Notes under the pieces: model-generated | Seen by the model: only the letters and a program-made list of their open reading frames with translations | Databases searched by the model: none | What the model was told of the DNA's origin: nothing | Position numbers and translations under genes: made by a program | In this document: one piece after another, positions 14,117-63,209 of the stretch | Numbering within the stretch: the stretch's first letter is position 1 | How the letters are laid out: every line of letters begins with the position of its first letter | NCBI RefSeq assembly: GCF_907164575.1 | Contig: NZ_CAJQYY010000006.1 | Location: forward strand, 124,001 to 188,000 | DNA from: Paraburkholderia gardini | GTDB taxonomy: Bacteria > Pseudomonadota > Gammaproteobacteria > Burkholderiales > Burkholderiaceae | Direction of reading: 5' to 3' | DNA length: 64,000 nucleotides

Positions 14117-14117
14117 T

Positions 14118-31539: not shown

Positions 31540-32787
31540 TCACTGTCCTGCAAGCGCGGCGAGCGCGGTTTCAACCCACTGGAAGCCAATACGCTCCTGC
31601 TCAAGCCTCAGATTCCCGCGAAGCCGGTTATCGCGCAGGTCGTTGAACAGCGCCTGCTCCGCATCGGCGAGCCGTGGCAAGTCGCGGAGTACCTGATCAT
31701 GCTCCTCGCCCCATTGAGCTTCGTGGGCGATCAGCGTCGCCCGGTCCATCAGGAAAGACGCGACGTGGTCGAAGCGGCTGCGCAACTGATCGAGGATGGC
31801 GAAGCCGTGAGTGTCGATATCTCCCCAGTAGTGGATGCTGCAGCGGGAAAGCCATGCCGCTTTTGACAGCGCGTCCCATCCGTAGCCTGCGCCGAAGACG
31901 ACGATCGTATCGGCCAGAGGCGGGAACGCGAGGAAGTTTGTCTCGTTCTCGGTGATGAAAACCCGGCGGATCGGCACGGCCAGCGCGGCAAAGCTGTCTG
32001 CATCGACTGCGATATCGGGAAGCGCGGAGCCGGGAAGCATGGGCAACCGTGCGTCGAGCACGCGAAACCGGATACGAACAGGCTTCTCGAGAAAACCGTA
32101 GCGGGCCGCGAAGTGCGCACCACCGTTTCTTTCTATCGCGACGGCCTCCAGCGGCAGTACGAGATCGAGCCATTCCGCCAGCACACCGCGCCAGTTTTCG
32201 ATGAACTTGCTGTGCACACCGGCAATGTCCACCTGTCTCAGGTAAATGCCGGGACGTGGATGCCGTACGATCCAGCCGACCACCGCCAGTAAACGTTCAC
32301 ATTCGTCAGCCAGCTCGAGCGCCTGCAGCGGACGCCGGCGAAACCATGCCAGCAGCGCCGGCTGCCGCGAGCCCACGAGGACGAGCAGGCGGCCGAACTG
32401 TGCCGCGTCGCCGCGCTTGCCGATCATCGCCAGCGCACTGTCCAGATCGCCGATCCAGACCGCCTGCGGCACGCGCTGAACACCCAGGACACGATGCCTG
32501 AACTCGCGCCATTCGATCCGGATCTCCGCGACCGCGACAAGCCCGGCAATCCATTCACGAACGGCCTGGAAACGTTCGGTGAGTTCGGCCGAAGCCGGTC
32601 CCTTCAGGACGAGTCGCAGGGGGAACGCACAGCCGGCGCGCGGGCCAACCTTCGCTTCTTCGCGAGCGACAGGCACGGCATTCGGCGCCGCGTCCGCACC
32701 GTCGCTCATCATGCTGCGCAACAACTCGCCTCGCTCCCACAAGCGGCGCACCTGTGCTTTCAGGTCGCTGGCGGTCGTCCAGCTCAC
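31540..32787 (-). CDS. jetD: Wadjet nuclease subunit JetD
   Basis: 415 residues, DUF3322 followed by DUF2220, starting at a GTG that overlaps the jetC stop (GTGA). A TOPRIM-like C-terminal half is visible: [13 protein letters not shown] (277-289, acidic E280) and [17 protein letters not shown] (320-336, D323 and D325). In Wadjet, JetD is the DNA-cutting subunit that acts on circular DNA after loop extrusion by JetABC. The catalytic acidic residues are present, so the subunit should be active. It is the last gene of the complete jetABCD operon. Confidence 0.9.
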
Positions 32788-35700: not shown

Positions 35701-36161
35701 TGGCTCTGCGCCTCTTTCATCCAGAAGACCTGCGCGAGCGAGATCGTCTGGTCATACCCGGCGTTGTGGAACACGCCGAGGATCACCGAGTAGCTGTTGC
35801 GGTCCCGCAAGGACACGGGCCTCGCTGTACCGGTCACCTCGTTGCGCTCGGACTTGTAATGCCCGAGTACGTACGAGCGCAGCGTCCGTTCCTTGCTGTC
35901 CGCGCCTGCCGCCTTGTTGTAGGCGATGCGCTGCGAGGGGACCATGAGCGTCGTGATCGCGTCGACCAGCGTCGACTTGCCCGAACCGATGTCGCCCGTC
36001 AGCAGACCGTTCTTGCCGTCCAGCTGAAGCGTCCATACGCGCCCATCGAATGTGCCCCAGTTGAAAACTTCCAGGCGGATCAGGCGAAAACCGGAGAGCG
36101 TGTCGTCGGCAAGAAAATCCAGCTCCAGCAGTTGTGGAATCGCCTCGTTCGGCTCATTCAT
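32784..36161 (-). CDS. jetC: Wadjet SMC-like ATPase JetC
   Basis: 1125 residues with MukB/SbcC-like architecture: N-terminal Walker [10 protein letters not shown] (56-64), a long coiled-coil middle rich in Glu, Arg and Leu, and a C-terminal signature GGKSGGQ (1010-1016) with Walker [11 protein letters not shown] (1048-1057). JetC is the motor that extrudes DNA loops in the Wadjet complex. It overlaps jetB by eight bases and jetD by four. All ATPase motifs are intact. Confidence 0.93.
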
Positions 36162-36795
36162 CGACGTCCCCTCCCGACCCTGCCGTCGTGCCCGCCAGCT
36201 GCGCCTGGTACGCAGCGAGGCGGGTGTCGAAGTCCGACAGCCATTGCGCGTCGACGAACGCCTTCAGGATGCGCCGCACCTCGAAACTGGCCGGGCCGCT
36301 CGCAACCTTCAACCGGCGCAGGAAGCCCAGTTCAACGATCTTGTTGATGTGCGTCTCGATCTGATCGATCAGCTTCGCTTCATTGCTGCTGTCCGGAAGG
36401 AAGACCCTGACAAGCTCGACGATGTCGTCGCGCGATAGTACGAGGCGCGTATCGCCACCGCCGGCATCGAATTCGGCAAGCTTCTTGCGCAGCAACGCCA
36501 GCAGCAGGCTGACCGGAAAAGAGATCGGCCGGCGTGCAATCAGACGCGGCAGCTTTGGCGCCGCGCCATCTTCGGCCTGCTCGGGAAGGCTGCGCAGGAA
36601 CGCGTAGCCTTCGGCCTCGTCCAGCACGAGTTCCAGGCCCAGTACCGACACGTAGTCCCGCACGCGCGCCTGCAGGTCGAGCAACGCGCCCCACAGACGT
36701 TCATCACCCTCACGATAGATCACGCCTTTGAGCAGCGTGATCGCCAGTGTCGACAGATCGGTGTTCGCCGCCACCTCTTGCCGTTCGTCTTCCAT
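36154..36795 (-). CDS. jetB: Wadjet subunit JetB (DUF4194)
   Basis: 213 residues starting [35 protein letters not shown], the usual DUF4194 start. The protein resembles the MukE-like winged-helix subunit of condensins and bridges JetA and JetC. GAGGTGAGG lies directly before the ATG, two bases after the jetA stop; upstream open frame lies inside jetA and is not used. A closing acidic tail (GSGGDVDE) overlaps the jetC start. Confidence 0.88.
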
Positions 36796-36797
36796 CC

Positions 36798-38252
36798 TCA
36801 CCTCACAAAGATCACGCGTGGCAGCCGGGCGCGCCGTGCCTTCGGCATCTCGTCGCGACGGGTTGTTTGCCACGCGATGACTTCGTGCGCGTCTTCGTCC
36901 ACCACCGTCTTGAATGCGTCGCTGCCCAGTTGCAGATACGCGACGAGTTCCGCAAGACCCTGCTGCAGCGGATGCGATTCGATCAGCTCGCGCAGCGTCA
37001 CTTGCGACCGGTCCTGCAACGCCTGGCGGATGTGACCCGCAAGCTGCGCCCGGTCGACCACCACCTGCGAATACAGCGCCGCAGCGTCGAGATCGACGTC
37101 GCCCGTTTCCAGCGCGATATCCGTGATAACCGGCTTCTGCACGGGCGTGTGCAGCGGACGTTCCATCGGAAGCTCGACGTCGGATGACGACCCGGCAAGA
37201 GTCATTATCTCGCCGACCGGCGGCGTGTCGCGTACGGCCAGCGCTCTCGCCTCGATGCCGCGCAGGATGTCCATGATGCGGCGGTTCTCCAGCCACGCCT
37301 GGTCATCGAGAAACCGGCGCAGTTGCTGCGACAGCTGCGCGACCGTGCGCTGCGTATGTTCACCCGCCTCCAGCCAGTCGTAGTGCACGCGACCGGTCCG
37401 CGCGTCGGGTTTCAGGTTGGCCACCGCGGGCAATGCGAGTACTCGCGCGAGCCGTTCGGTGAGCTCTTCCTGGCGCGTGCTGGACATCAGGAAATCCCAG
37501 AATGCGCGGAAGCTTTTGCCCTGGTCGGAGTCACCGATCGCGTCGCGCTCGCCCATGATCTCCTCCAGTAGCGCGCCCTTCGATCCCTCCCATAGCGCGA
37601 TGCGCTCGCGCACGCGACGATCGAGCATGCGAAAGTTCTGCTCGACCTCGCGAAAGTCGGTCAGCAGGTCACGCGCCAGCTGCATGAATTGCTGGAAGCG
37701 ATCCTTGAGGGCCGTGTCGTCCAGCAGTGGAAGATCGCCGGCATTCACCCGTGCGATCTCGGCATCGATCTCGTCTCGACGGCTGTGTAATTCGGCCACG
37801 CGCTTTTGCGGATCGGATTCGCTGCCTTCGCTCATCTGCCGCAGTAACTCGAACAACGTCAGCAGGCGTGATTCCGTGCCGACGAAACTGCGTTCCGTGA
37901 GTGCGTCCAGCCAGACGATCGCTTTTTCCGTCGCTGGCGTAAGGTCGAAGTGCGGTTCGTCCGAGTCCTGGCGGTAGAACTTGCGCAACCAGCCTTTTTC
38001 CGCGCTTGCCCAGTCGTTGAGGTAGTCGAGCGCGCGTTTTGGATAAGCATCCTCACCCAGGCGATCGCGCAGGGCATAAAGTTCGTCTTCCAGCGCTTCG
38101 GCCAGGTCGGCGGCGGACATCGCGCGCACGTTCGGCACCACGAAAACGCGATGCAGGAAGCTCGCCACCAGCGCGACGTGGTCGGAACGTAATAGCCGCC
38201 ACGCTGGATGGTGCGTGCGAAGGGCGTCGAGGGTTAAGTAGTCGAGGGGCAT
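36798..38252 (-). CDS. jetA: Wadjet subunit JetA (DUF3375, MukF-like kleisin)
   Basis: 484 residues with the DUF3375 layout: start MPLDYLTLDALRTHHPAWRLLRSDHVALVASFLHRVF, a helical middle (DRFQQFMQLARDLLTDFREVEQNFRMLDRRVRERI) and a C-terminal winged-helix part. JetA is the kleisin that closes the JetC ring. It is first in the operon; with jetB, jetC and jetD it gives a complete type I Wadjet system, known to block plasmid transformation by cleaving circular DNA. Confidence 0.9.
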   Translation of the reverse strand: MPLDYLTLDALRTHHPAWRLLRSDHVALVASFLHRVFVVPNVRAMSAADLAEALEDELYALRDRLGEDAYPKRALDYLNDWASAEKGWLRKFYRQDSDEPHFDLTPATEKAIVWLDALTERSFVGTESRLLTLFELLRQMSEGSESDPQKRVAELHSRRDEIDAEIARVNAGDLPLLDDTALKDRFQQFMQLARDLLTDFREVEQNFRMLDRRVRERIALWEGSKGALLEEIMGERDAIGDSDQGKSFRAFWDFLMSSTRQEELTERLARVLALPAVANLKPDARTGRVHYDWLEAGEHTQRTVAQLSQQLRRFLDDQAWLENRRIMDILRGIEARALAVRDTPPVGEIMTLAGSSSDVELPMERPLHTPVQKPVITDIALETGDVDLDAAALYSQVVVDRAQLAGHIRQALQDRSQVTLRELIESHPLQQGLAELVAYLQLGSDAFKTVVDEDAHEVIAWQTTRRDEMPKARRARLPRVIFVR

Positions 38253-38995
38253 GGCTTTGCTCTCGGGCCGGATCGGATCATTGAGTACGAGCCGCCCGCG
38301 CGCTCATGTTAACCCGACGATTGTAACTGCATGCCGTTTGCGCGCGCATTGAAACCTGTCGTCGCACACCCTCTGCCGCTTCCGTCTTCGATATCCTTGC
38401 GCGGCAAAGCGTGTGAAACGCGGTCCTCGATACAGGTCACAACCGCGATGCAGCGCGAAGATCGTCGTGCTCGAAGGCACTCGCCATGCGTGCGATCCCT
38501 GCCCGCCTGCAACCAGCCTCCCCGGCAACCACGTGCGACGTTCGGGTGACGTGGCTCACCTCCCGGGTCGTCGCCCGAGCCTGTCTCAGCGACAAGCCAG
38601 AAAACTCCGCGGCATTTTCCTGGAGTCCACGGGCGTGTGGAATTCGTCCTCTGCGCTCCAGCGGAATCGCAGCGCGCCCGGGCGAGTTCCATCAGCTACG
38701 CCCCGAAGGACGTCAATTCATTCCCACTCGATCATCAACGAGGCTCGCAAGTCCACATGGTTAAAGGGATTTGCAGTGATCGACATGGGTCTTTACCGTC
38801 GCTTTTACCGTCAGGAAAACATGCTCTTTTGCTGGCGCGGGAGATGGAGCGATTTGCGGGGCGACGACTCTTGCGACACCATCATCAATCAGGCAGTAGC
38901 ATACCGAAGATGCACTCTCAAGTCAGGCCCGGCTTTCGGCAAGGTCCTCTCACAGATCACACAGTGACCAATTCTCAGGAGCGAAGCTGAATCAC
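38253..38995. other. Gene-free stretch between the Wadjet and Qat regions
   Basis: About 740 bases with no supportable gene; the frames present have no recognisable protein features. It must contain the jetA promoter on the minus strand. A guaA-3'-end-like sequence at 38718-38732 is annotated separately and may mark an element boundary. Confidence 0.5.
38718..38732 (-). other. guaA 3'-end-like sequence, candidate attachment site remnant
   Basis: On the minus strand these bases read ATCGAGTGGGAATGA, which codes IEWE-stop. IEWE is the conserved C-terminus of GMP synthetase GuaA, and several genomic islands and ICEs integrate at the 3' end of guaA, leaving this piece at their far end. No other guaA sequence is nearby, which fits a distal attachment-site copy rather than a gene remnant. 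Confidence 0.5.
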
Positions 38996-39253
38996 TCACA
39001 ACTTCTCCGCAAGGGCCTTTAACTGCTTGCTCGCCCGCGCTACCTTAATCTGCGCCTTCCCATCCTTGCTCACTCGCACCGAGGTGGCGTATTGAATGAT
39101 CGCGTCATATGCCTCCTTGCTGGTTGCCTCGTACCAGCCTGACTTGCGAGTGAGCTTTCCCGCGGCAACCATGCCTTCAAGGTCGGGGTAGTTATCCACT
39201 TGATCTCTGATCAGCTTCTTGAGGTCCGCTATGTCTTTTTCTGTGAGTTGCAT
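38996..39253 (-). CDS. Small hypothetical protein at the end of the Qat operon
   Basis: 85 residues, MQLTEKDIADLKKLIRDQVD at the start and ASKQLKALAEKL at the end, rich in Lys, Ala and Glu and predicted soluble and mostly helical. CAAGGGCAACC precedes the ATG. It lies 68 nt behind qatD on the same strand. I do not recognise the family; it has no signal, membrane span or cysteine. Position suggests an accessory of the defence operon or cargo between the operon and the element boundary. Confidence 0.65.
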   Translation of the reverse strand: MQLTEKDIADLKKLIRDQVDNYPDLEGMVAAGKLTRKSGWYEATSKEAYDAIIQYATSVRVSKDGKAQIKVARASKQLKALAEKL

Positions 39254-39321
39254 GGTTGCCCTTGTTTTTGGGTCAGTGAGTCGGTGACAAAAATACTTGC
39301 GTAGCTGAAAGCTCGACCACT

Positions 39322-40116
39322 TTACTGATCCCGCGGGGAAACCTGTGCATCATGCTCTAGCAAGCTGCGTAGGTTACTCCGCACGATCGCTGCGACCGTG
39401 GCCGCCGAAACATTGTGCAGGCTGCCCAGCCTCTCAATAACCGCAGCCACGTCTGCAGGCTTCGAAGGCCGTGTCCCGGTCTTGGTGAAAGGACCATCCG
39501 TCTCGGTCAGCAGCCGTTCGAACGGAATGGCTGCGACCATGGCCGAGTGTCGTTGGTTGTCCAGCATCGCAGCATTGATCGAGAAGTAACAACCTAACTC
39601 TAGGGCACGCGTCGCCTCCGCCTTGGTACCAGTAAACCAATGAAGCACGACTTTGCCTCGCGCGGGTGGAAGATAAGACTCGATGTGATCAAGCACAATT
39701 CTGGCAGCGCGGATGCTGTGGACGGTAACCACTTTGTCCCCTGCTTCCGCACAACGCTGCAGAACATGTTGAAAGACTCGCTTCTGCAGATCAATTGACT
39801 TGTAGAACCGCGGCCCAGCGTCGAGTCCCACTTCCCCAACATAGCGCGTTTCTGGCAGATGCCGATCCCACAGATCGAGTTCGTCCGCCCTTTCCGCGAC
39901 CAGTTGAGGATGCAGTCCGAGCGCCGCCCGGACGTGCCGCGTACGTTGGGCCAACTCATGATTACGGGGCCATGCCCTTGGAGTCGTCGTGACAGCCAGT
40001 GTAAAGACTCCCGCGTCCTCCGATTCTTGAACCGCAGCCTGATGATCAGGGTACAGATCCAGATGACAATGGAAGTCCACGAGGCCTGCCGTGGTAAGCA
40101 TATTCGGTTCCGACAT
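39322..40116 (-). CDS. qatD: QatD, TatD-like DNase of the Qat defence system
   Basis: 264 residues of the TatD metal-dependent hydrolase family: DFHCHLDLYPD (14-24, first metal-binding histidines), YVGEVGLDAGPRF (metal glutamate), VTVHSIRAA, VVLHWFTGTKAEA and LTETDGPF. The ATG at 40116 shares a base with the qatC stop (TGATG), so translation is coupled. In Qat (QatABCD), loss of the TatD nuclease abolishes phage defence in the described systems. The usual metal residues are all seen. Confidence 0.9.
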   Translation of the reverse strand: MSEPNMLTTAGLVDFHCHLDLYPDHQAAVQESEDAGVFTLAVTTTPRAWPRNHELAQRTRHVRAALGLHPQLVAERADELDLWDRHLPETRYVGEVGLDAGPRFYKSIDLQKRVFQHVLQRCAEAGDKVVTVHSIRAARIVLDHIESYLPPARGKVVLHWFTGTKAEATRALELGCYFSINAAMLDNQRHSAMVAAIPFERLLTETDGPFTKTGTRPSKPADVAAVIERLGSLHNVSAATVAAIVRSNLRSLLEHDAQVSPRDQ

Positions 40117-41483
40117 CAACTCGGTCTCGTCTCGACGCCATCGATCAAGCGTGCAACTTCATTTAGGCCGCGCCGGTAGACGTCGGCGAGCTGACCGAGA
40201 TGAGCAACCTCGTCGGCGAGCGAGCCAGGTTTATGGATCAGAAGGTTGGCAAGCTGCGGCCGATCACGCAGACGCTCGATCGCGTATTGAAAGGATCGCA
40301 CCTGCTTACCCATAGATTCCCGGGTATCCAATGCCCTGGCGCGAAGATCCGGCACCGTATAGGTTGTCTTGTCGCCTCCAGTACCCCATGCACGCTCCAA
40401 TGCTGCGCGCCGGATCAGGCACGGCAAGCAGTACCCGCAATGCTCGATGCCCAGCCCCTGCCATCGCCCCTTCGTCGGGGACGAGCACGACAAAGAATCC
40501 GGTGCAAGCTTGGTCAGCAGCGCCGGGTTACCACAATTTGATGCCATCTCCCCTTTGGTCTGATCCCAATATGGGTTCGCAATGCGTCCGTTGATGCCGA
40601 GTTCTGCAAGGAGTTCGTTCCAGCGAGCCATATAGTATGGGTGCGTGGTACGTGTGCTATTCGAACCGAGTCGCAATGGGTCCAGCGGAACGTTCAACGC
40701 GATCAGCCCATTCTCTGGCACCCGCAAGGTGAAGGCCTTTCCCATCCCGGTCCCTGTAAACACGCCGAGCGCGAAGAACAAGAACGAGCGGCCACGCGTG
40801 CTGTTCTCCGATCCAACGTCCTCGACCAGACCGTCAACGAATGTCATGCCCACGCGCAAGCGCTCGAATGACGACTTGTCGTAGTGCTTCTTCAAGGTGG
40901 CGAAGAGCTTGCCTTGGGCATCGCTGGTCGCCCCTTCCCCAAAGTGACTGACCAGCAGTGGCGTCGATCCGGCCTGCAGCAAATCGATAGCACCGATCAA
41001 GCTGTCCAAGCCACCCGAAAACAGGCTCACGGCATCGAAAGGAAGAGCAATCAAGGTTGGTGGTGCATCTTGGGCTATGCCCGCGAACCTTGGCGGCCGC
41101 GCCCGAAACCCAATCGTCCATCGGTCGCCTGTGAGGAAATCTAAGGCCTTCGTCAGCGTTGATACGGCGCCTGTCCAGCGCCCCGGGTCACTGACTGGAA
41201 CGACCAGGCGGATCTCCCGCGTCCAAGAGTCCTGCGACTGTTCTGCGCGAGAAATGCGGGTGTCTGCCGCGTGGACATGCGCAGCGACAACCAACAAGTC
41301 AATACCGATTTCCGATGGGAAAATGCCCAGCTTTTTCAAGCTCGTCAACGCACCGCCAATGCCGTGGTCAAGTGACGTTTCACCAGCGACCATCTGAAGC
41401 GAGGTGCACTGTTCGTCGGCCGCCGTGGGAACGCTCACTTGATCGTCAGGGCCGAAGCGGCCTACCAGGAGTTGCCGTTTCAT
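40116..41483 (-). CDS. qatC: QatC, QueC-like PP-loop protein of the Qat defence system
   Basis: 455 residues. A PP-loop ATPase motif SLFSGGLDSLIGAI (153-166) and a C-terminal Cys cluster (SCSSP..., HCGYCLPCLIRR) resemble QueC, the 7-cyano-7-deazaguanine synthase of queuosine synthesis. About 140 residues precede the PP-loop, which true QueC lacks. In Qat the role of this protein is thought to be nucleotide- or protein-directed chemistry rather than queuosine synthesis; the exact reaction is not settled. It overlaps qatB by four bases (ATGA). Confidence 0.9.
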   Translation of the reverse strand: MKRQLLVGRFGPDDQVSVPTAADEQCTSLQMVAGETSLDHGIGGALTSLKKLGIFPSEIGIDLLVVAAHVHAADTRISRAEQSQDSWTREIRLVVPVSDPGRWTGAVSTLTKALDFLTGDRWTIGFRARPPRFAGIAQDAPPTLIALPFDAVSLFSGGLDSLIGAIDLLQAGSTPLLVSHFGEGATSDAQGKLFATLKKHYDKSSFERLRVGMTFVDGLVEDVGSENSTRGRSFLFFALGVFTGTGMGKAFTLRVPENGLIALNVPLDPLRLGSNSTRTTHPYYMARWNELLAELGINGRIANPYWDQTKGEMASNCGNPALLTKLAPDSLSCSSPTKGRWQGLGIEHCGYCLPCLIRRAALERAWGTGGDKTTYTVPDLRARALDTRESMGKQVRSFQYAIERLRDRPQLANLLIHKPGSLADEVAHLGQLADVYRRGLNEVARLIDGVETRPS

Positions 41484-42370
41484 TGGTCGGCCTCCGCTTG
41501 ACCCAGCGATTGGAGGATCGAGAAGGCGGATTCGTACACCGTGTCGACGAACGACTGAATGCGCTCCGGGGTCAGTTCCGGCGATTCGGCACGCGCCCTC
41601 GTTAGCGCATCGCTTACACCACCACGGATGAAATCACGCAGCTGCGCCTCCGCCCGGTGCGCAGCCTGCGCGTCCGTTGGCATCGTCACAGCCTTGGCGC
41701 CAATGTCGTTGCAGATCCGCGCTTCGATCGCATGCGTCGCATACAACTCGAACACGGTTTGCATCTGGTCAGGCGTGAACGTCGAAAGGTCGGTCAACCC
41801 CTCGGAGGTCAGTTCGATTATGGTCTCGATATAGGCCTCTCGCGCGATACCTTCGTCGACAGTGCCTGCACCAGGACAGATGTAGTCCGCCAAACCGACG
41901 AAAATCTCTATGATCGGACGTCCCGCAAGCGACTCAAGGTCCAATGAGCGCAGTGCTTCGCGCACGCCGCGGGCCTGTGCATCCGCCAGAAAGCCGAGCA
42001 ATCTCGCACCAGAGCCGCGTGAGGCTCCCATGCGTTGGGCCGCTTGGCGTGCGCCCCCTGCGGAAGTGGAGACGTACCGTGAAACGGCGCGCCCGAGGCT
42101 GGCCCGGTCACTGCCGCCCGAGCCAGCAAATCGCGTGAAGCTATTGCGGGCACCGGAAAAGCGCTGGGAATCTGCTGCAGCGGGAATAGCCGGCCGGTTA
42201 GGTGCGGCAGGTGGCGCCGTGCCGTTACCCGGTGCAACGCCGTCGCCGTCCGCCCCATTGCCTGCGGCGGGCAATGCCGGCGGTGAGCCACCGCCATCCG
42301 CTTCTCCCAACCATGAAGGCACCAACGGCGTCCCCCCACCCGGACCGCCATATGCTGTAGACGTTCCCAT
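41480..42370 (-). CDS. qatB: QatB, Qat defence system protein
   Basis: 296 residues beginning MGTSTAYGGPGGGTPLVPSW, a start that is characteristic of QatB proteins. A Gly/Pro/Ala-rich flexible region (about 20-105) is followed by a helical domain (GARLLGFLADAQARGVREALRSLDLESL and onward). QatB has no enzymatic assignment; a linear Gly-rich N-terminus next to a QueC-like enzyme suggests it may be a modification substrate, which is inference. Its ATG overlaps the qatA stop by one base. Confidence 0.88.
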   Translation of the reverse strand: MGTSTAYGGPGGGTPLVPSWLGEADGGGSPPALPAAGNGADGDGVAPGNGTAPPAAPNRPAIPAAADSQRFSGARNSFTRFAGSGGSDRASLGRAVSRYVSTSAGGARQAAQRMGASRGSGARLLGFLADAQARGVREALRSLDLESLAGRPIIEIFVGLADYICPGAGTVDEGIAREAYIETIIELTSEGLTDLSTFTPDQMQTVFELYATHAIEARICNDIGAKAVTMPTDAQAAHRAEAQLRDFIRGGVSDALTRARAESPELTPERIQSFVDTVYESAFSILQSLGQAEADQ

Positions 42371-44331
42371 CAGCGCGTCCCCTTCGTGTCTTTCAGTGCC
42401 AGCTCGGAAGCAGTCTTGAGTGCGAGGTTGTTAGTCACCTTGCTCCATTCCGTGAGTAGTTTCGTCAGGCGCCCGACGCATTCAGTGTCCTTGACGACAC
42501 CCTGCCACCCACGGACCGCCCAAGGCCCACATTTACTACTTGGCAAAGCCTCTAGGAAGTCCAGCAGTTTGCTTTGCAGGCCGGGTTGCGCCTTCACCAA
42601 CACAATGAGCCCCTCAACACCGGGCGGCATGGTCTCGAAGGCACCGGCTCCCATGATCCTGGTGCGCATCGCCTCAAACACCTTGTCTGCTTCCGGCTGC
42701 ACAAGCTGCTTCAGCTCGGTGTCATAGCCCTGAACGGTCATCTTTCCGCCAAACAGCTTCTCCACCACACTGGCTAGGTGTCCCAAAACCGACACTGGGC
42801 CGAAGTAGTCCTTCTTGTCTTTCGTCACGAAGAGATACGGGCGAAGATCGATGCCAGACAGCAAGGGCTGGACACGCGCCCAGTCGCAAACCGTGTCCGA
42901 TGATTTCCACTCTGCCAGGACGACGCTCTCCGTTGCGGGCGAAGTGACTTCTGTCACCTTGTGTCCTTTGTTAGCATCCCCCGCCGCTTTGCCGTCGCTC
43001 TTGGCATCGACGCCATCGGTTGCGAGGCTCTTCTCAAGTGTCTCAAGGTCCTCGCAGATGCCCTTCGAGTGAACAGCCGCGACATAAGCGATCTGCTCGA
43101 AAAGCCGTGGGATGAAGCGCTCGGCGAGCATCAGTTTCGCTAGCACGGGCAAGGTGATGTCAGCGCCGAATCCACGCGCGGTCGCCGTGCGCTCCCGCAA
43201 CAGTAAGGTATTCAAGAACCGCTTTATCTGGCGCGGGTTGCCCTTGGTACCGCTCGCCAGGATCGGACCAATCTGATCACTGAGTGCAAGCGCGTTATTG
43301 GCCTTGTCCGCCTTCGTCCCGAGCGCGGCTCTGACGGTTGCAGCATCGAGGCCGACGTTTGCCCAAGGCCGTTTGAGGCGTTCTCTTGCTGCTGTAATGA
43401 GCTTCGCGTATTCAGCGTCCGAATCGCCGATCTCTGCGCCCGCCAACAGCAGTGTCACGTAGATGCGCGTCTCGGACTCGCCCAGAGCTGGGATGCGAAA
43501 CGGCACCTGAATCAGTTTTTCCAAGTAGTTTCGGGCGTAGTCACGCGGGCCCGTGGTTTCCGGCAGATCAGGAAAGTGCTTGCGCACCGCGTATTCGATC
43601 ATCGCCTCATCGGCGGCAACCACGAAAGCAGTGCGGGCGGTAAACACGAACAGCCGAATTGCTTCGAGCGTCTCTATGGCTGTATCCGGCAAACAGCGGT
43701 CAAGGTCATCAATCAACACAATGAGCTGCTTGACGCCCGCATCTTTCAGAAGCTTGTCGAATGCCCTCCGAAAGGCCTCAACCTCCTCAGGGACGTTCCT
43801 GGTTTCTGCCGGCTTTAATATCGACTTCACGCCATCGATTGCGGACGTGAGATTTTCTTTGGTCGCCAGCTTGCCGGGGTCCGCGAACATCCCTTCGAGC
43901 ATCCCCACAACAGCGCCGATCTGGTCCGGCGTCGGCATGCCAGTGAATGCAGTAACAGCCAAGCCCCCCGCGCGCTTCGCAACCTTTAGCCAATCAATGC
44001 GATTGAAGACATCCTTGACCGCGCCTGCAGCTTTTGTCATTGCTGGGCGCTTGTCCACGAGGCCAGTGACGATACCCTCAATCAGTGCGATCTTGGCGTC
44101 TTCGAAACCTTGGAAGCGCCAGCCGTTGAACTTCAGGCAAAGCACGTCGTCCTTGCCCGAGAATCCCGCTTCGATCATCTCCAGGACACTGGATTTCCCG
44201 GCGCCCCAATCGCCGTGGACTCCGATCGTGACGGGGTGGTCTGGCTTCTCCCTCAACAGTTCAATGATCGTCGTCGCGATCGCTTCGTTGTTAAGGAGGT
44301 CAACCTTAGTTTCGTTGTCGGTCAGGATCAC
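42370..44331 (-). CDS. qatA: QatA, KAP-family P-loop NTPase of the Qat defence system
   Basis: 653 residues from a GTG at 44331, chosen because GAGGAG lies six bases upstream and the protein then begins with the family-like ILTDNETKVDLLN. An ATG at 44358 would add nine residues (MRRGDEEKR). KAP NTPase motifs: Walker A GVHGDWGAGKSS (37-48) and Walker B LIVLIDDLDRCLPD (about 215), followed by the KAP-type segment FVVAADEAMIEYAV. QatA is the ATPase of the Qat system and may sense phage infection. It follows herA with a gap of 48 bases on the same strand. Confidence 0.9.
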   Translation of the reverse strand: MILTDNETKVDLLNNEAIATTIIELLREKPDHPVTIGVHGDWGAGKSSVLEMIEAGFSGKDDVLCLKFNGWRFQGFEDAKIALIEGIVTGLVDKRPAMTKAAGAVKDVFNRIDWLKVAKRAGGLAVTAFTGMPTPDQIGAVVGMLEGMFADPGKLATKENLTSAIDGVKSILKPAETRNVPEEVEAFRRAFDKLLKDAGVKQLIVLIDDLDRCLPDTAIETLEAIRLFVFTARTAFVVAADEAMIEYAVRKHFPDLPETTGPRDYARNYLEKLIQVPFRIPALGESETRIYVTLLLAGAEIGDSDAEYAKLITAARERLKRPWANVGLDAATVRAALGTKADKANNALALSDQIGPILASGTKGNPRQIKRFLNTLLLRERTATARGFGADITLPVLAKLMLAERFIPRLFEQIAYVAAVHSKGICEDLETLEKSLATDGVDAKSDGKAAGDANKGHKVTEVTSPATESVVLAEWKSSDTVCDWARVQPLLSGIDLRPYLFVTKDKKDYFGPVSVLGHLASVVEKLFGGKMTVQGYDTELKQLVQPEADKVFEAMRTRIMGAGAFETMPPGVEGLIVLVKAQPGLQSKLLDFLEALPSSKCGPWAVRGWQGVVKDTECVGRLTKLLTEWSKVTNNLALKTASELALKDTKGTR

Positions 44332-44379
44332 CCGTTTCTCCTCATCGCCACGGCGCATTCATTCCGCTCTACTCTGAAA

Positions 44380-46422
44380 TTACACGCGCGAGCTGGGATA
44401 CGAGCTCTTGATGTAGACGTGCAGGAACTTCCCCTTCGAATCCGAGGCCATGAAATCCTGATAGACCGATTCCGGTACGTTGTAGTACTGGTAAAGACCA
44501 CCGCTTTTGAATTCGACTTCCAATGTCTCTGACGCGGCCTCATAGCCCACAGACAAGACCGTGGACGAAGCTACCATTTCGCGTTCCATATCAGCAATCT
44601 CCCCAGGTTTGAGTTTTTCCCGCTTCAAGTGAGCCGCGGCCCATAATGGATTTTGGGCTCGCCACGATGCAGCAAGCCTGGTGTAGTCCTCACTGATACG
44701 AGAACCCTTCCAGCGTTTCGCAACTGCGGGATCTTCGCTCTGCGGACGATGCTCTTCATTCGGCAACGCGATGCGACAGCGTAACGGAAGACGTGCGGCT
44801 TCGCCTGTAATGATCGCTTCGCCAGTTCGCAAAACGGGAAGGCTCTCGACAATGCCGGACAGGTTGTCCGGCAAAGCGCCCTGGACTTTACTGCGGTCTG
44901 CCGCGTTGGAAAGCCGCAAGGCAATGAATGTGCCGCACTGCGATAGGATCGTTTCGTCGACCTCGGAAGGACGTTGACTGACGATCATTGCACCAATACC
45001 GAACTTGCGTCCTTCCTTGACGATTCTCTGCACGATGTCGCGCGCCGGACCACCGCCCTCCTTTGAGAGATAGCGATGCGCCTCTTCCATGACAACAAGC
45101 ATGGGGCGGTGAATGCCGCCCTCGCTTTTTTCGCGCCCCCAGAATAAGCCCTCGTAGATGATCTTCAAGATGGCCGCGATCAATTGGGCGAGTACAGCAC
45201 TCGGAATGCCGGAGAGGTCCAGAATGGTTATTGGCTTCCCATGGCCGAGCCAGGTACTTAGCAAATCCGGAAGGTCTTTCTCGGTACTGCCATCGATCTC
45301 AGGCTCCCACGCGCCTGGGTGCAACAGGAAGTCATAGCGTCGATCAAGAAGACGCGACCGCATTTGATCCAAGGGCCGCCGGATGCTGAGCACGCCGATG
45401 TTGTTGATGAAGGGTGCCGTCGATCCCAAGCCGTTTGGCTTGTACTTCGGCGCCCTCAGTGTTTCCGCATCACCAGCTTCCATGAGCGCAGGCTTGGTCT
45501 TGGCCGAGTCCTCCCAGGTCTTGATCTCCGGGTCAACCAGTTCAAACCACAGCTTCTTCAGATTGAACGGAATGGGGCTGTCCGCCGTCATCGACGTGAC
45601 GTCCAGCCCTGCGAATGACACTGCATTGGCGAGCGTCATCTTATATTCCAGAACCTTGTCCAGGATCTGACTCATGGCTTTGTCGTCGAGTTTCCCCATC
45701 AGGAAAGTCAACAGGTCAGCAGGATCAAGTGCCCAGAACGGGATGTGCAACGGTTCCTCGCCGTCACTGGGGTTGACCCGAAAGACCGTAGCGATGGATT
45801 GCAAGGCGCGGCTGTACTCACCATGGACGTCAAGCAGGAGAACGCTCGCGCTGGGGAACCCGCCCTGCTCATCTCCGGCGTCGCCCATGACGATCGACCG
45901 CAGCAGACTTGCCACCGTCGTCGATTTCCCTGCACCCGTCGAACCAAGCACGGCACTGTGCCGTGTGACGAGTTTGTCGAGATCGATTCGGACTGAAATT
46001 CCTTCAGCGTTGGCCAAGCGGCCAATGACGACCTGGCCACCATCAGCCGAACCGTAAATCACAGCCAGATCTTCCTCGGTGACCAAGTGCACTTCATCGT
46101 TGACGCTGGGGTACTGGCTGATTCCGCGCTCGAAGGACGAGCCGACAATCTCACCAACCAATTGAATCGTCATCCACCGGTCGCCGCGATCATTGGGTTC
46201 GCGCACTGCCTCCGGCGTCGCGTTTGCACCGACCTCGGCGACGATGCCGTACAGGTCGTGATACCCCTGTGGGATGCGCACGAAACTGCCGACCTGGCCT
46301 ATGCGATAGCTCTTGCCCCCAATGATGGCGATGCCTGAAGCCACACTCGGCGATTGACGGATACTCACCGTCGCGCCTGTCACGGCGCCAACGTATCCCA
46401 ATAGCGTCGGCTTCGAGTTCAT
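44380..46422 (-). CDS. herA: HerA-type ATPase with C-terminal KTSC domain (SIR2-HerA defence)
   Basis: 680 residues. HerA/FtsK-like translocase core: an N-terminal HAS-barrel (1-130), Walker A VLGSTGAGKST (158-168), LLLDVHGEY, Walker B VVMEEAHRYLSKEGGG and a sensor region VSQRPSEVDETILSQC. Residues 622-680 (YEAASETLEVEFKSGG and the following YYNVPESVYQDF) match a KTSC domain, an addition not normal for HerA. In the known SIR2-HerA system HerA assembles with the NAD-hydrolysing SIR2 protein as a large complex. It overlaps sir2 by four bases. Confidence 0.9.
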   Translation of the reverse strand: MNSKPTLLGYVGAVTGATVSIRQSPSVASGIAIIGGKSYRIGQVGSFVRIPQGYHDLYGIVAEVGANATPEAVREPNDRGDRWMTIQLVGEIVGSSFERGISQYPSVNDEVHLVTEEDLAVIYGSADGGQVVIGRLANAEGISVRIDLDKLVTRHSAVLGSTGAGKSTTVASLLRSIVMGDAGDEQGGFPSASVLLLDVHGEYSRALQSIATVFRVNPSDGEEPLHIPFWALDPADLLTFLMGKLDDKAMSQILDKVLEYKMTLANAVSFAGLDVTSMTADSPIPFNLKKLWFELVDPEIKTWEDSAKTKPALMEAGDAETLRAPKYKPNGLGSTAPFINNIGVLSIRRPLDQMRSRLLDRRYDFLLHPGAWEPEIDGSTEKDLPDLLSTWLGHGKPITILDLSGIPSAVLAQLIAAILKIIYEGLFWGREKSEGGIHRPMLVVMEEAHRYLSKEGGGPARDIVQRIVKEGRKFGIGAMIVSQRPSEVDETILSQCGTFIALRLSNAADRSKVQGALPDNLSGIVESLPVLRTGEAIITGEAARLPLRCRIALPNEEHRPQSEDPAVAKRWKGSRISEDYTRLAASWRAQNPLWAAAHLKREKLKPGEIADMEREMVASSTVLSVGYEAASETLEVEFKSGGLYQYYNVPESVYQDFMASDSKGKFLHVYIKSSYPSSRV

Positions 46423-47672
46423 GCCGGGCCGGCGGTGGAGCCCGCTGCAGGCAATGGCCCGTCGCCTCGCGGAGCAGGTTCGACAGCTGCGGCCACGGGG
46501 TCTACTACCGGTGCAGCGGGAGGAAAATGCTGCGCAGCGCGCGAGGACGCGAAGAACCGCGCGAGCCGATCAAAGCGCCCGAGTTGAAATTGCGCGGCCC
46601 CGCTCTTCTCGTCGATGGCCCAGTAGGTGGCTCGAATCGCACCCCAATCGCGTGTCGGCATGTCACCCGGCATCCACGGAGCGGCGATGCCGTTGATCAT
46701 GGCTTTATCCGGGGAATACAAACTCATGTTGGCGCGGCGCCCCGCGATGTCGCAGGCATAGACTTCCTGGTCAAGCGGCTTGAATTGAAACGCGAACACG
46801 CTGGCCGAAGGATTGGCCGCCAGGCATTCATCGATTCGTGCGGAGATGTGCGCATCGGCAAAGGAAAACCCAGTGGCGATCAGCAGCGTGTCGGGTGTCA
46901 TCAGGAATGCTCGCAGCCTGTCGAAGAGTGCGGCATACGGCGCCTTCTGCGTCTGGTCGTACTTGAGGTGTTCTGGGAACACCAGATGCGTCGCGTCGGC
47001 TCGCCCGGTGCGGATCACCTCACCCCTTGCATTGGCTGCCCAACCGAGCGAACCATGCAGTTTCCACAAGCGCGTCCAGCGTGCTGGCAAATCATTGCTA
47101 GCAACCGAAGAGGGGTCGAAGAATGGCTCACTGGCACCGCTAAAACCGTCGAAGAATGGGACGCGCGTGCGTTCCAACGCTTGCTCAAACAGCAGGTCGT
47201 AGTTGGTGGTGAAAATTTCAACTGGGTGTTCGCGACCTGTACCACTGATCCACGTCACAAACTCGGTGTATGGCGAAGGGCCCTCGTGAAGGGGCCTGTT
47301 GACGATGGCGCCGATCTGCTCGCAGATCGCCTCGCTCAGCTGCTTGTACCCCTCCCCATCCAGGTCATGAACCTTCGTCTTTCCGATGACGCCAGCCAGA
47401 CTACGCACGCGCGACAGGATCGTTTCGATGTTGGGAGTATCGAGTTCAGCCCGCACGGAATCCAAGGTTTTGCCGTAGTCGGGTTTCAAAACCTCCATCA
47501 CCATATTGGTGAGGCCCGCCACAGCAGGAATCAAAGGCTTGTCGCTGCCGGGAGGGAAGATGCCGGCCGGCGCGCCGGCGCCGACCAGAAGGCCGATCCG
47601 CTTACGTCCCTGTGCAATGATCTGCCGCAGACTCGCCATGTACTGGTCTGGATTGTGGACACTGACCGTCAT
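46419..47672 (-). CDS. SIR2-family NADase of the SIR2-HerA defence module
   Basis: 417 residues from the ATG at 47672, which has AGGGGAAG upstream; an ATG at 47711 would add 13 residues but has no ribosome-binding site. SIR2 motifs: LLVGAGAPAG (28-37), IFTTNYDLLFEQ (153-164, N157), KLHGS (204-208, H206) and GFSFADAHI (about 268). The last 40 residues are Ala/Pro-rich. Defensive SIR2 proteins deplete NAD+ on phage infection and abort the cell. As the first gene of the sir2-herA-qatABCD run its promoter would drive all; an extended -10-like TGTGATAAT lies at 47730-47738 on the minus strand. Confidence 0.88.
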   Translation of the reverse strand: MTVSVHNPDQYMASLRQIIAQGRKRIGLLVGAGAPAGIFPPGSDKPLIPAVAGLTNMVMEVLKPDYGKTLDSVRAELDTPNIETILSRVRSLAGVIGKTKVHDLDGEGYKQLSEAICEQIGAIVNRPLHEGPSPYTEFVTWISGTGREHPVEIFTTNYDLLFEQALERTRVPFFDGFSGASEPFFDPSSVASNDLPARWTRLWKLHGSLGWAANARGEVIRTGRADATHLVFPEHLKYDQTQKAPYAALFDRLRAFLMTPDTLLIATGFSFADAHISARIDECLAANPSASVFAFQFKPLDQEVYACDIAGRRANMSLYSPDKAMINGIAAPWMPGDMPTRDWGAIRATYWAIDEKSGAAQFQLGRFDRLARFFASSRAAQHFPPAAPVVDPVAAAVEPAPRGDGPLPAAGSTAGPA

Positions 47673-47803
47673 CGGGTACTTCCCCTGTTTTTTGAACAGC
47701 TTAGGAGGCATTTCGCTGTTTCAGTTCTTATTATCACATTTTCGAAGACTAACGATTTTCATGGAACCCGGACTTCACGCTGAATCCTCAATCCCCATCA
47801 TGA

Positions 47804-47959
47804 ACGCTTCCGGCAGGCGTGGAGTATCGGCTGACGCCGCTCTGGCAATCCGTGCTCGATCCGCTTACAAACCTGATGAATTGGTCAACTCGGCAGTACG
47901 CCGAGATCAGCGCTGTGCGGGCGCGCTACACGCTGTTGCATCCCAGTTTGTATGCGTGA
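47804..47959 (+). pseudogene. C-terminal remnant of an HxlR-family regulator
   Basis: The plus strand encodes TLPAGVEYRLTPLWQSVLDP followed by LTNLMNWSTRQYAEISAVRARY and a stop at 47957. This is the C-terminal half of an HxlR winged-helix protein; a stop codon directly precedes it (47801-47803) and no N-terminal part is present. It lies between the conjugation and defence gene sets, where insertion or recombination has evidently cut an older gene. Confidence 0.75.
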
Positions 47960-48223
47960 TAGTTGCCCGCATGAAGCAATACTTGCTAATCGCGCCAATG
48001 CAACGATGTCATCGACCCTTCCATACAACTCATTCGCTTTAGCCGCGAGACGCTGACGGAATCGTCGCGGCGGCCGGCTACGGGTAACTTTATTCGACCG
48101 AAAGCCCAGGCCACTTTCAAAGATGCAACGACATTCCCGAGCCACACAGAGTCGCAGTGATGTTTTGCCCTATGCGTCGTTCAATAAGTGACCTTTAAGG
48201 CATTAAGCTGAAACATCAGCATT

Positions 48224-48231
48224 TTTTTCAT
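48224..48231 (+). other. TTTTTCAT octamer at the end of the conjugation module, candidate ICE attachment site
   Basis: The octamer overlaps the stop codon of the DUF2274 gene, the last gene of the trb cluster. Tn4371-family ICEs are reported to integrate at TTTTTCAT-like octamers, with trbI and its follower near the right end. The same octamer occurs inside the nickel/cobalt permease gene (30192-30199), so chance cannot be ruled out. Confidence 0.45.
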
Positions 48232-48491
48232 TCTGACGAGAAATCCGTGGGAGAAGAACTTCGGCTGCGATCTACCCTGCCCTGTCGGAAGCCCCGATCC
48301 CGGGCCATAAACGCTTCCAGCATATGTGGAATCAGCGCCACAGCATTGGCCGTCTCGCCATAGATTTGCGCATGCAGCGCTGCGTAACATTCCAGTTCGG
48401 CCTTGAGTTTCGCGGTGCAGGCGAAGGTAATCTTTACGCTCTCGTTTTTTGGCAACGGCCCTAGTCGTAACTTTCTCCTGGATACGCTCAT
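48228..48491 (-). CDS. DUF2274 family protein following trbI
   Basis: 87 residues starting MSVSRRKLRLGPLPKNESVKITF, the usual DUF2274 start; a small soluble protein found directly behind trbI in Tn4371-like elements, of unknown function. Its ATG overlaps the trbI stop by four bases. The second half is Arg/Ser-rich (GFRQGRVDRSRSSSP). Confidence 0.85.
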   Translation of the reverse strand: MSVSRRKLRLGPLPKNESVKITFACTAKLKAELECYAALHAQIYGETANAVALIPHMLEAFMARDRGFRQGRVDRSRSSSPTDFSSE

Positions 48492-49780
48492 GGCATTAAC
48501 CCTCGCTGGACAAAGAGCGGCTGGTACAGCCGCAGCACCATATCCTTGTTCACCATCACGTTGACTTGAAACCCCGGCCGTACCGTCAGCGTCGGCTGGA
48601 TACTCAAGTCGCGGCGTGTGATTTCCTGACCGACCTGATTGGCCGTGTCCTGCGAGCTGTCGCGCAGCGCGATCACCGTATTACCGTTGGCGCTGCCCTG
48701 ATTCGAGACGGCCAACTCGGAACCGACGCCGAGCATCGTGGACAGCACAGCACCCGTCAGAATGCGGCCCCAATGCCAGTCCACGCCATCCTCCAGGCCG
48801 GCATAACCGGCTGGGTCGATGCCGGGCAACTTGTCGAGCGCGATCGACGAGGTATCCGGCAATACCAGCCGCAACCAGACCAGCAGCACCCGCTGCTGCC
48901 CGAAGGCAACCTGACTGTCATAGCGCCCGATCAGGCGCGAACCCTGCGGAATCAGCAGGTAGTGGCCAGTCGCGGTGTCGTACACGGGCTGCGTCACCTC
49001 GGCAATGATCTGCCCCGGCAGGTCGGAATTGATGCCCGTCACCAGCGCGGCCGGAATGATCGTGCCCGCCATCACCGTGTATGGCGAGGCCGGTGCCTGC
49101 AAGCTGCCGGTATTGCTGGTCGCAGCGTCGCCGCCCTTGGCCATGAACGCTTCCTTCTGGTCCTGCCGATTCTGGATCGCCGTCGGATCGTTGGGTTGTG
49201 CGGCCGTGGATGCCGGCCCGGCCCCCATCGGATTGAAGGCGCCGGCCGCCGCATTGGCCGCGGACATGGTGCCCGCAGACGCGGTGGCTGCATCAGGCTT
49301 GCCGGTATCGCTGCCGGTGTGGAAGAACACCGCAGAGCGGGCAATCTCGTCGGCCTGGCGCTGCCGGTCGATGTTCTCGGCCGATGGCCCCGGATTGACG
49401 TTGCCACTTGGTAGCGGTGGCATCGCCGACGCTGCACCCCAGTCGCCGGGCAACGGCGGCCCGAGCTGCGGCACGCTGGCCGGCGCCGCCGGAGCGGGTT
49501 TCGCCGGCAGCTTCGAGTAGTCGGACGGCAACTGGTCGAGATCGTCGGCTTTGGCGACCCGATCGACGTTGTAGAGGTTGGTCTGATCGCCCGAACCGCG
49601 CCGGCCCTTCGATTGCAGCGCCCACATCGACACGCCGGCCACGGCCACCGCGAGCAGCGTGGCGGAGACGGCCAGCGTTCGACGGTTGAGCCGTGTTACC
49701 GCACGCGGTGCCGCGCGCAACGCAACGCCCTCGGGAGCGACCTTCGGAGCGGGCTGGGCTTCGTGGTCAGTCGTGCCCAT
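48488..49780 (-). CDS. trbI: Conjugal transfer protein TrbI (VirB10-like)
   Basis: 430 residues from the ATG at 49780 (GGGAGC upstream), overlapping trbG by 14 bases. A cytoplasmic N-terminus with a membrane span at about 36-53 (TLAVSATLLAVAVAGVSMWAL), a Pro/Ala-rich periplasmic linker and a C-terminal beta-barrel domain (TVMAGTIIPAALVTGINSDLPG and PQGSRLIGRYDSQVAFGQ) are those of VirB10/TrbI, which spans inner and outer membranes in the secretion channel core. Confidence 0.94.
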   Translation of the reverse strand: MGTTDHEAQPAPKVAPEGVALRAAPRAVTRLNRRTLAVSATLLAVAVAGVSMWALQSKGRRGSGDQTNLYNVDRVAKADDLDQLPSDYSKLPAKPAPAAPASVPQLGPPLPGDWGAASAMPPLPSGNVNPGPSAENIDRQRQADEIARSAVFFHTGSDTGKPDAATASAGTMSAANAAAGAFNPMGAGPASTAAQPNDPTAIQNRQDQKEAFMAKGGDAATSNTGSLQAPASPYTVMAGTIIPAALVTGINSDLPGQIIAEVTQPVYDTATGHYLLIPQGSRLIGRYDSQVAFGQQRVLLVWLRLVLPDTSSIALDKLPGIDPAGYAGLEDGVDWHWGRILTGAVLSTMLGVGSELAVSNQGSANGNTVIALRDSSQDTANQVGQEITRRDLSIQPTLTVRPGFQVNVMVNKDMVLRLYQPLFVQRGLMP

Positions 49781-50780
49781 GACCAGCTCCCGCAGCGACG
49801 CCATCGGTACGCTCGATGCGTACCACGGCCGCCCTACTCCCATCCTTGCCGCCCAGGCGCAGCTCCGCTGCGCCAAACAGACGATCCACGATGTCGTAAG
49901 GGGCATGGAAACGGTAGTTCACCAGCTCGCCCTTGCCATCCGGCCCGACCACGAACAGCGGCGGCAATTCGCCCTGTGCGATCCCCGCCGGAAACTGGAT
50001 ATAGACATGCTGCCCGTCATCGAACGCGCGCACGGGCTTCCACGGCGGGCTGTCGCCCGTGATCGCATAGCGGAAATGCAACTGGTCGAGTGACAGACCA
50101 TCGGCCGCAGGCGCGACCGCATCGGCGGCCTGCGCCTGGGCCTGCAAGGCCAGCATCTGGTCCTTTGGATACTCCCACGATACTGAGGCCATCCACGCCT
50201 TCACCGTGGACGTGAGTTCAAGCAGATAGGTGCGCCGGTTCGTGGTGATGACAAGGTTCGTCATGATCCCCGCGCGCACCGGCTTGACCATCACGGCCAC
50301 GCGCCGGCTCGTGCCGCTGCCGCTCGCGGTATCGCCCACGATCCATTGCACGGTATCGCCGGCGGCGACGGTCACCAGTTCCTCCCCCGACTGCAAACTG
50401 ATGACCGTCACGCGGCCGGGGCTGGTATAGACCTGATACAGCGCGCCATCGGAGAACGGCCAGACCTGGATCGCGTTGATGTAGCCGTCGCGCGTCGGCA
50501 CCACGCTCGCGTCGGCATTGGCCTGCTCGACGCGCGCTTTCGCATCGGCCAGCTCAGGGGCTGGCTTTGCATCTGCGGGAGGCAGCGGCTTCATCTGATC
50601 CGGCAATGGCAAGGGCTTCGGCACTTCCACGACCGCAACCGGCTTGGGCGGCTCAGGCAATGGCTGCGCCTTGACCGATTCGTCCAGCGAGATCGCCGGC
50701 GGTGGTTTGCCTTGCGTGGCGCACCCGGCAACGCTGCCCAGCAAGACGAGGAAGGCAATGGCAGTGATCGACGGTTTCAT
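49767..50780 (-). CDS. trbG: Conjugal transfer lipoprotein TrbG (VirB9-like)
   Basis: 337 residues with a lipoprotein signal (FLVLLGSVAGC, lipobox cysteine at 20), a Pro/Lys-rich stretch to about 70 and a VirB9/TrbG beta domain (IQVWPFSDGALYQVYTSPGRVTVISLQSGEE). It forms the outer-membrane part of the core complex with TrbI. Coupled to trbF by an ATGA overlap. Confidence 0.93.
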   Translation of the reverse strand: MKPSITAIAFLVLLGSVAGCATQGKPPPAISLDESVKAQPLPEPPKPVAVVEVPKPLPLPDQMKPLPPADAKPAPELADAKARVEQANADASVVPTRDGYINAIQVWPFSDGALYQVYTSPGRVTVISLQSGEELVTVAAGDTVQWIVGDTASGSGTSRRVAVMVKPVRAGIMTNLVITTNRRTYLLELTSTVKAWMASVSWEYPKDQMLALQAQAQAADAVAPAADGLSLDQLHFRYAITGDSPPWKPVRAFDDGQHVYIQFPAGIAQGELPPLFVVGPDGKGELVNYRFHAPYDIVDRLFGAAELRLGGKDGSRAAVVRIERTDGVAAGAGHGHD

Positions 50781-61816: not shown

Positions 61817-61883
61817 AAGTCATCGCTCGCCCCAGCCAGCCCAAGTCGCGAATTGCGTTGTTTAAGCGGCCAGCTTTTCTTTT

Positions 61884-61987
61884 TCACAATCGCATCGAGC
61901 CACCGCCAACCTCTAGCGTCTGCCCTATCGCATAGCGCGCATCCGTACCGGCGCCGAAGGCAACGAGGTCAGCGATAGCAGCCGGGT
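61884..61987 (-). pseudogene. C-terminal remnant of a short-chain dehydrogenase
   Basis: Minus-strand codons read NPAAIADLVAFGAGTDARYA then IGQTLEVGGGSMRL and a stop at 61884. This is the end of a Rossmann-type SDR (ARY-TGQ-LEVGGG). It begins exactly at the stop of the formate dehydrogenase, so the rest of the gene has been replaced. Confidence 0.75.
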
Positions 61988-63148: not shown

Positions 63149-63209
63149 CGAAGACTCCTCTTGAGTAGCGTCCAGCAAAGCCGAACTCAGAATAGGTTGA
63201 TGCTGTCGA

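Follow-up and report, generated by a model that had tools for sequence, protein, structure and literature searches.

The stretch of DNA analysed here (the window, 64,000 nucleotides from Paraburkholderia gardini, positions 124,001 to 188,000 of contig NZ_CAJQYY010000006.1) carries a run of six genes, sir2, herA, qatA, qatB, qatC and qatD, in which two complete predicted anti-phage gene sets, SIR2-HerA and Qat, are probably stacked as autonomous systems in one read-through cassette and would act as separate layers. This reading is derived from sequence comparison, and we favour stacking because both partners are promiscuous, with varied genes standing before Qat and with SIR2-HerA modules of the window's type, which carry a KTSC domain, mostly found without Qat. 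The original prediction had described six genes head to tail on one strand, with overlaps of one to four bases, a 48-base gap between herA and qatA and an 85-residue orphan 68 bases beyond qatD, and these coordinates were confirmed: sir2 and herA overlap by four bases, qatA and qatB by one, qatB and qatC by four, and qatC and qatD by one. The gap measures 48 bases with the GTG start of qatA at 44331, located behind GAGGAG, and would be 21 bases for a start at the ATG that lies further upstream (44358). Order and strand also stood for the proposed extent of 38996..47711, but the start of sir2 was moved from 47711 to 47672 by alignment to relatives. All motifs sought in the six proteins from sir2 to qatD are intact.

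The front half of the run consists of sir2 (46419..47672, minus strand), which from the family start encodes a SIR2-like predicted NADase of 417 residues with TTNYD and HGS motifs (PADLOC PDLC04094, 4.8e-179; PF13289; PDB 8w9l, 6.2e-77), and herA (44380..46422, minus strand), which encodes a HerA-type ATPase with the Walker A motif GSTGAGKST and a fused C-terminal KTSC domain (PDLC04105, 6.9e-158; PF01935; PF13619; PDB 8wiv). Together they fall under the broad PADLOC definition of SIR2-HerA, an Asn/His-motif SIR2 adjoining a P-loop HerA. The NCBIfam equivalogs NF042942, NF042943 and NF042944 were not reached (61.9/500, 154.8/800 and 235.6/850 bits), SIR2 scoring 61.9 of 500 bits and HerA 235.6 of 850 bits against the anti-phage equivalogs, and the module is therefore filed only as a KTSC subfamily and not under those equivalogs. 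The KTSC domain (PF13619), absent from the original prediction, occupies residues 619-675 of HerA. In 89 relatives whose HerA has the expected orientation, KTSC is encoded by a small gene of its own behind herA in 70 (L019, with a split HerA, among them), fused in 14 and undetected in five; three of these five end at most 121 bases from the HerA frame, and in the other two HerA is shortened. Since KTSC is mostly a separate third gene in the relatives, the front half is best described as a three-part SIR2-HerA-KTSC module, two parts of which have become fused in the window's clade, and the KTSC gene, separate or fused in 84/89, would be the third component of this SIR2-HerA subfamily. The best PDB match of the window's HerA is 8wiv, aligned over residues 4-680 (2.6e-190), whose residues 628-692 match a stand-alone KTSC protein, and a KTSC-tailed full-length HerA homologue shares the PDB entries 8wld, 8woc, 8wod and 8wof with a SIR2 homologue that is the best match of the window's SIR2; a KTSC-bearing SIR2-HerA complex has thus already been solved. 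A second, apparently separate HerA-KTSC fusion was seen at 11293-13341 of locus L066, a Solidesulfovibrio metagenome-assembled genome (MAG).

The rear half contains qatA to qatD in order, all on the minus strand and each above its NCBIfam equivalog cut-off, and so qualifies as QatABCD. The KAP-family ATPase QatA (42370..44331; NF041923, 924.6 bits, cut-off 600) has Walker A and Walker B motifs, and the predicted substrate protein QatB (41480..42370; NF041924, 249.2 bits, cut-off 100; PDB 9zee and 9vll) begins with MGTS, as in the passages of PMC13279940 consulted. The QueC-like enzyme QatC (40116..41483; NF041925, 545.6 bits, cut-off 280; PDB 9vlk and 9zee) carries SGGLDS, TRTTH with its two threonines, and the cysteines, in agreement with the SGGxDS and T-x-T signature described there. 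The metal-site motifs DFHCH, GEVGLD and ETD are present in the TatD-family nuclease QatD (39322..40116; NF041926, 353.6 bits, cut-off 230). A search for QatC in phages gave two weak matches only.

The original prediction had proposed searching genomes for the same six-gene order, and an alignment scan with SIR2, in which one genome per species was used and the best 80 of 425 relatives were kept, indeed yielded five composites in which a full Qat set follows immediately behind, in the same orientation. Three of them, the Rhodoferax MAGs L012 and L021 and the Janthinobacterium MAG L014, have the window's six-gene order and a QatA 85% identical to the window's; the other two, L013 and L017, have the same order with a second Qat lineage, whose QatA is about 34% identical. 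A QatC search added L183, where a Qat 94-97% identical to that of L017 stands behind KTSC and the rear part of a broken HerA, with no match to sir2 on its 9.5-kb contig. In L144 and L180, a Qat of the window's lineage is joined to canonical SIR2-HerA, and a poly-gamma-glutamate (PGA) hydrolase gene lies between the two; the canonical type was assigned by scan in L144 (PADLOC PDLC02185/02186) and by 99% HerA identity in L180, and the hydrolase by scan in the former and by position in the latter. Altogether, a HerA of either type lies on Qat's strand in 9/55 loci with a QatC-like gene, six of the nine being the window or found through SIR2, so that the count free of this search bias is 3/49 loci found through QatC. 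Signs of Qat loss or replacement are given by L015, which at 13326-14481 has a match to no more than the initial 24 codons of second-lineage qatA and, behind it, a SMODS nucleotidyltransferase gene, and by L019, where only a few bases of the qatA start are left; in L015 the place behind SIR2-HerA-KTSC has apparently been put to new use. None of nine plasmid SIR2-HerA loci shows Qat, 12 relatives of KTSC-type SIR2 in viral contigs had no Qat match within the stretch examined, and the whole run gave no DNA match over 5% coverage in plasmids.

The promiscuity of Qat became apparent from the genes that precede qatA in 46 Qat loci, a set that excludes L001, L002 and L092-L121 (short or duplicate) as well as loci without a QatA match over 150 bits (e.g. 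L128 and L148-L155). In the window's Qat lineage, defined by a QatC at least 75% identical and comprising 12 loci, a co-directional upstream gene lies within 48 bases of qatA or overlaps it in 12/12 loci, and it is of six kinds: HerA-KTSC in four, a PGA hydrolase in four, and HsdR, a reverse transcriptase, a PtuA-like ATPase and a HerA-like protein matching mad8 in one each. The upstream genes were identified by family scan in L123, L124, L125, L144, L145, L146, L122 (a 305-residue gene) and L132 and by annotation in L168, and the PGA hydrolases of L122 and L180, two of the 12 loci, were inferred from length and position. Two of the four PGA hydrolase loci stand behind canonical SIR2-HerA and two behind an Mrr-like endonuclease (with identical QatA), and the PtuA-like ATPase gene is itself preceded by a type I specificity gene. 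As a separate observation, the PGA hydrolase gene overlaps qatA in L144 and L168 (by position also in L122 and L180), behind two different defence-type modules.

Promiscuity was likewise observed for the front module. Among 76 SIR2-HerA-KTSC loci with at least 1.5 kb of downstream sequence, 19 had a tight co-directional follower, which was Qat in five; the other scanned followers were DUF2130, metallophosphoesterase-like, nSTAND3, HNH and SLATT genes and one gene without a family; in L022, JetA lies about 220 bases behind the module. Relatives of the window's HerA that lack Qat include L018 (95% identical), L020 (91%) and L023 (a shortened HerA). A DUF2130 gene tightly behind KTSC in L032 and L058, and in L034 and L046 where it was inferred from length and position as in L032, may be another rider.

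A plain defence-island neighbourhood, in which the two gene sets are expressed independently and their spacing is incidental, would agree with SIR2-HerA being a minor neighbour of Qat among loci found through QatC, and with the 27/33 rows outside the window's lineage that have no tight co-directional upstream gene. We consider it rather unlikely, given the tight spacing in 12/12 loci of the window's lineage versus 6/33 others (Fisher p 6.5e-7; L174 was left out as it has no upstream sequence). The difference persisted in a bias-reduced set without L013, L017, the window, L012, L014 and L021 but with seven loci from a phylum sample (8/8 versus 5/38, p 4.9e-6), and after near-duplicates had been merged (6/6 versus 5/34, p 1.2e-4), although all of these figures are descriptions rather than tests, as the sequences are related and the genes were called mechanically. 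Incidental spacing is also difficult to reconcile with herA-qatA junctions that are alike, 38-48 bases, with two different Qat lineages. A further reading would take the window's Qat lineage as an obligate rider without a promoter of its own, always docked behind an operon whose products engage foreign DNA (HerA, HsdR, Mrr, reverse transcriptase) and taking over its expression and perhaps its trigger, thus forming a second layer that can be plugged in universally and is set off once the first is engaged or overcome; this we regard as unlikely.

That the run forms one unit, as originally predicted, is supported on its regulatory side, where overlaps, spacing and recurrence make joint transcription likely, and unsupported on its functional side. 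A functional unit would mean that HerA-KTSC loads on phage DNA while SIR2 and Qat act from the same complex or signal, and three kinds of pairing, a HerA upstream on Qat's strand in 9/9 loci (6/9 being the window or found through SIR2, and L183 having a broken HerA) and an apparent exchange of herA as a block with qat under similar sir2 genes speak for it. Because the pairing with SIR2-HerA recurs, a functional link between the two gene sets is possible. Yet the window's Qat lineage sits just as tightly behind HsdR, reverse transcriptase, PtuA-like and PGA hydrolase genes unrelated to HerA-KTSC, such a HerA is missing from the examined stretch, in some cases a short one, of 46/55 loci with a QatC-like gene, SIR2-HerA-KTSC is accompanied by Qat in 5/76 loci only, and close HerA relatives do without it. 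In addition, QatB and QatC alone have been reported to protect against phage lambda (PMC13279940, as far as consulted). One functional unit thus appears quite unlikely to us.

How the composites diverged was examined with substitution rates and trees. Synonymous divergence (dS) between the window and L012, L014 and L021 amounted to 1.09-1.18 for sir2, 1.03-1.09 for herA and 1.12-1.60 for qatA, with a ratio of nonsynonymous to synonymous divergence (dN/dS) below 0.1, while qatC was close to saturation (dS 1.9-2.2). Such similar dS across sir2, herA and qatA, together with low dN/dS, would be expected if the block had been kept together under purifying selection, and the pairing is likely old in the window's lineage. 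Compared with L013 and L017, SIR2 is 89-93%, HerA 79-80% and QatA about 34% identical. In the HerA tree (39 rows picked from those available, six others having been dropped as their aligned stretch crossed a stop), clade A (seven rows) unites the four composites with the window's Qat and three Qat-free loci, and clade B (four rows) contains L013, L017, L015 and L022. The QatA tree, built without L133, L137, L145 (whose QatA was intact on inspection) and L170, for which the reading frames picked were short or failed, places the window's lineage (11/12 loci) in one starred clade, inside which the four KTSC composites form a starred group. A divergent gene pair upstream of sir2 in L013, L014, L015, L017, L019 and L021, identified as AbiEi/AbiEii in L021, is 80-92% identical at the DNA level and occurs with either Qat lineage; the window is without this AbiE-type flank of the other composites.

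Several points weigh against stacked, separate layers. HerA proteins of clade A accompany one Qat and those of clade B the other, yet SIR2 is alike in both and the AbiE flank occurs with both, which suggests that herA and qat move as one block, and such a block seems to have been exchanged beneath one sir2. Three joinings recur (KTSC-type with the window's Qat, KTSC-type with the second Qat, and canonical SIR2-HerA with the window's Qat), and recurrent joining could mean a selected functional link. The Qat lineage was chosen after the pattern had been seen, 4/12 of its loci are the window itself or came from the SIR2 search, and its sister L169 (QatC 65% identical) is loosely spaced, at 199 bases. 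The GC content at third codon positions, 0.60-0.70 in the run versus 0.79-0.84 in trbE, trbI and traG of the surrounding conjugative element, is a point in favour of our reading, but it is as low in DUF2274 (0.59), which is counted as element backbone. Finally, KTSC is termed RNA-binding in the cited part of PMC7824862.

For the stacked cassette in the window we infer co-transcription, triggers and layering as follows. One mRNA from a promoter upstream of sir2 would carry both modules, with Qat riding on read-through. The original prediction had named a promoter or terminator between herA and qatA as evidence to the contrary, and no promoter-like or terminator-like site was listed in this gap, although the scan was weak, since across 38200-48600 it returned one promoter-like site where 3.3 were expected by chance and eight terminator-like sites where 9.3 were expected. 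An Rfam scan of 38000-50000 gave nothing at E 0.1. In the published excerpts, SIR2-HerA hydrolyses NAD+ as an assembly of 12 SIR2 and six HerA subunits, with both subunits needed in the Vibrio system (PMC11559045), and in another homologue the NAD+ pocket of SIR2 is opened by HerA binding (reviewed in PMC12198126). By analogy with the solved homologues and with PMC11559045, six HerA and twelve SIR2 subunits in the window would form a complex that hydrolyses NAD+ upon infection, and the KTSC tail likely aids HerA in engaging nucleic acid. Within Qat, the glycine at the N-terminus of QatB (MGTS) would be the target of QatC in an ATP-dependent reaction of the QueC kind, which was not reconstituted in the consulted part of PMC13279940, where the QatC active site and the QatB glycine motif are required and QatA and QatD broaden the range. 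Correspondingly, QatA as a DNA-binding ATPase and QatD as a nuclease may widen the phage range here. Each layer would then cover phages that escape the other, and a shared trigger would not be required.

The original prediction had counted the 85-residue orphan (38996..39253, minus strand) as the seventh gene of the run, and this part of it was not supported. An inclusion of the orphan in the cassette, as a regulator or antitoxin, would fit its position on the same strand 68 bases downstream and its nature as a small, conserved protein whose fold is predicted with confidence (mean predicted local distance difference test score, pLDDT, 86; predicted template-modelling score, pTM, 0.61); 50 proteins were among the matches listed, the orphan itself counted. 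It is unmatched in all other SIR2-HerA/Qat composites examined and is present in 1/97 genomes of the genus, its own, and its fold has no match of known function, with none in PDB at E 0.001 and one uncharacterised phage protein in BFVD (5.1e-4). No Pfam, NCBIfam or PADLOC family was matched at E 0.001, and a search in plasmids gave no match. A seventh part is very improbable on these grounds.

The run appears to be cargo of a mobile element. Upstream of it lie traG, trb genes, trbI and DUF2274, and the same contig carries a relaxase, an S26 peptidase, ParA and RepA beyond the window. The set of traG, a trb cluster ending in trbI-DUF2274, relaxase, ParA and RepA corresponds to what we take to be the architecture of the Tn4371-like family, and the element is likely a Tn4371-like conjugative element; no integrase was found among the subset of open reading frames scanned. 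DUF2274 and trbI (48228..49906, minus strand; PF10038, PF03743) mark the end of the trb cluster and the upstream border of the likely cargo slot. On the other side, we infer the end of the element, likely its right end, in a conserved and apparently non-coding stretch of 240 bases (38671..38910, minus strand) with paired GACGGTAAA repeats, recognised by DNA matches in other loci. Segments of about 80-205 bases from it are matched behind Qat in L012, L013, L017, L021, L183, L132, L144 and L180, and one is matched after DUF2274 in L185. In a Salmonella plasmid the right-end match begins about 50 bases after DUF2274 with no gene in between, an empty slot; in L132 the same slot holds the second Qat and a ChaC-like gene without SIR2-HerA; and in L014 trbI and DUF2274 stand in front of the flank and composite. 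Taken together, these loci indicate that the run is likely cargo between trb and the right end.

A search for a second copy of the right end at the opposite side of the element gave matches of chance length only (L197), and the paired repeat pattern had no exact match in viral contigs. A tRNA-borne attachment site at 38671-38910 was rejected, as the window is free of tRNA genes and the nine loci scanned have none at this stretch; L180 has two tRNAs, 4 kb from the right-end element. The 17-base core of the stretch occurs 8 times in the genome (at most two mismatches) versus 7 for the control. Wadjet-type genes on the same strand (31540-38252; JetA, a DUF4194/MksE-like gene, a JetC-like ATPase and JetD) likely lie just beyond the right end, and a LysR regulator and a D-2-hydroxyacid dehydrogenase adjoining traG (60872-63268) are likely metabolic cargo of the element.

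No paper describing a joined SIR2-HerA/Qat run was found among the open-licence papers searched; those naming both present them, in the portions consulted, as distinct systems within lists, tables or references. Defence systems are catalogued singly, and a Qat lineage docked behind other genes in every locus examined would point to layers that can be passed on together as a single cassette; such cassettes would provide natural two-layer constructs. The swappable modular hotspots of defence genes on Pseudomonas genomic islands (PMC12629846, whose main text leaves Qat unnamed) resemble the slot described here, which differs in the type of element and in a recurrent specific pairing. The variants that pair HerA with a KTSC protein, described as DNA-binding, and have an endonuclease instead of the sirtuin (PMC9503650, in the part cited) share the link between HerA and KTSC, whereas the window has SIR2 in place of the nuclease and KTSC fused to HerA. 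From SIR2-HerA (Nezha), which it resembles in a SIR2-like protein and a HerA ATPase, with sir2 upstream and overlapping stop and start, and in a KTSC-tailed HerA homologue deposited in PDB with SIR2, the front module is set apart as a KTSC subfamily with KTSC fused to HerA, while the canonical HerA of L144 (590 residues) has no KTSC match. The rear module agrees with QatABCD in its four genes, their order, equivalog scores, MGTS, SGGxDS and T-x-T, and the lineage to which it belongs differs from it in the gene that stands tightly upstream in all 12 loci.

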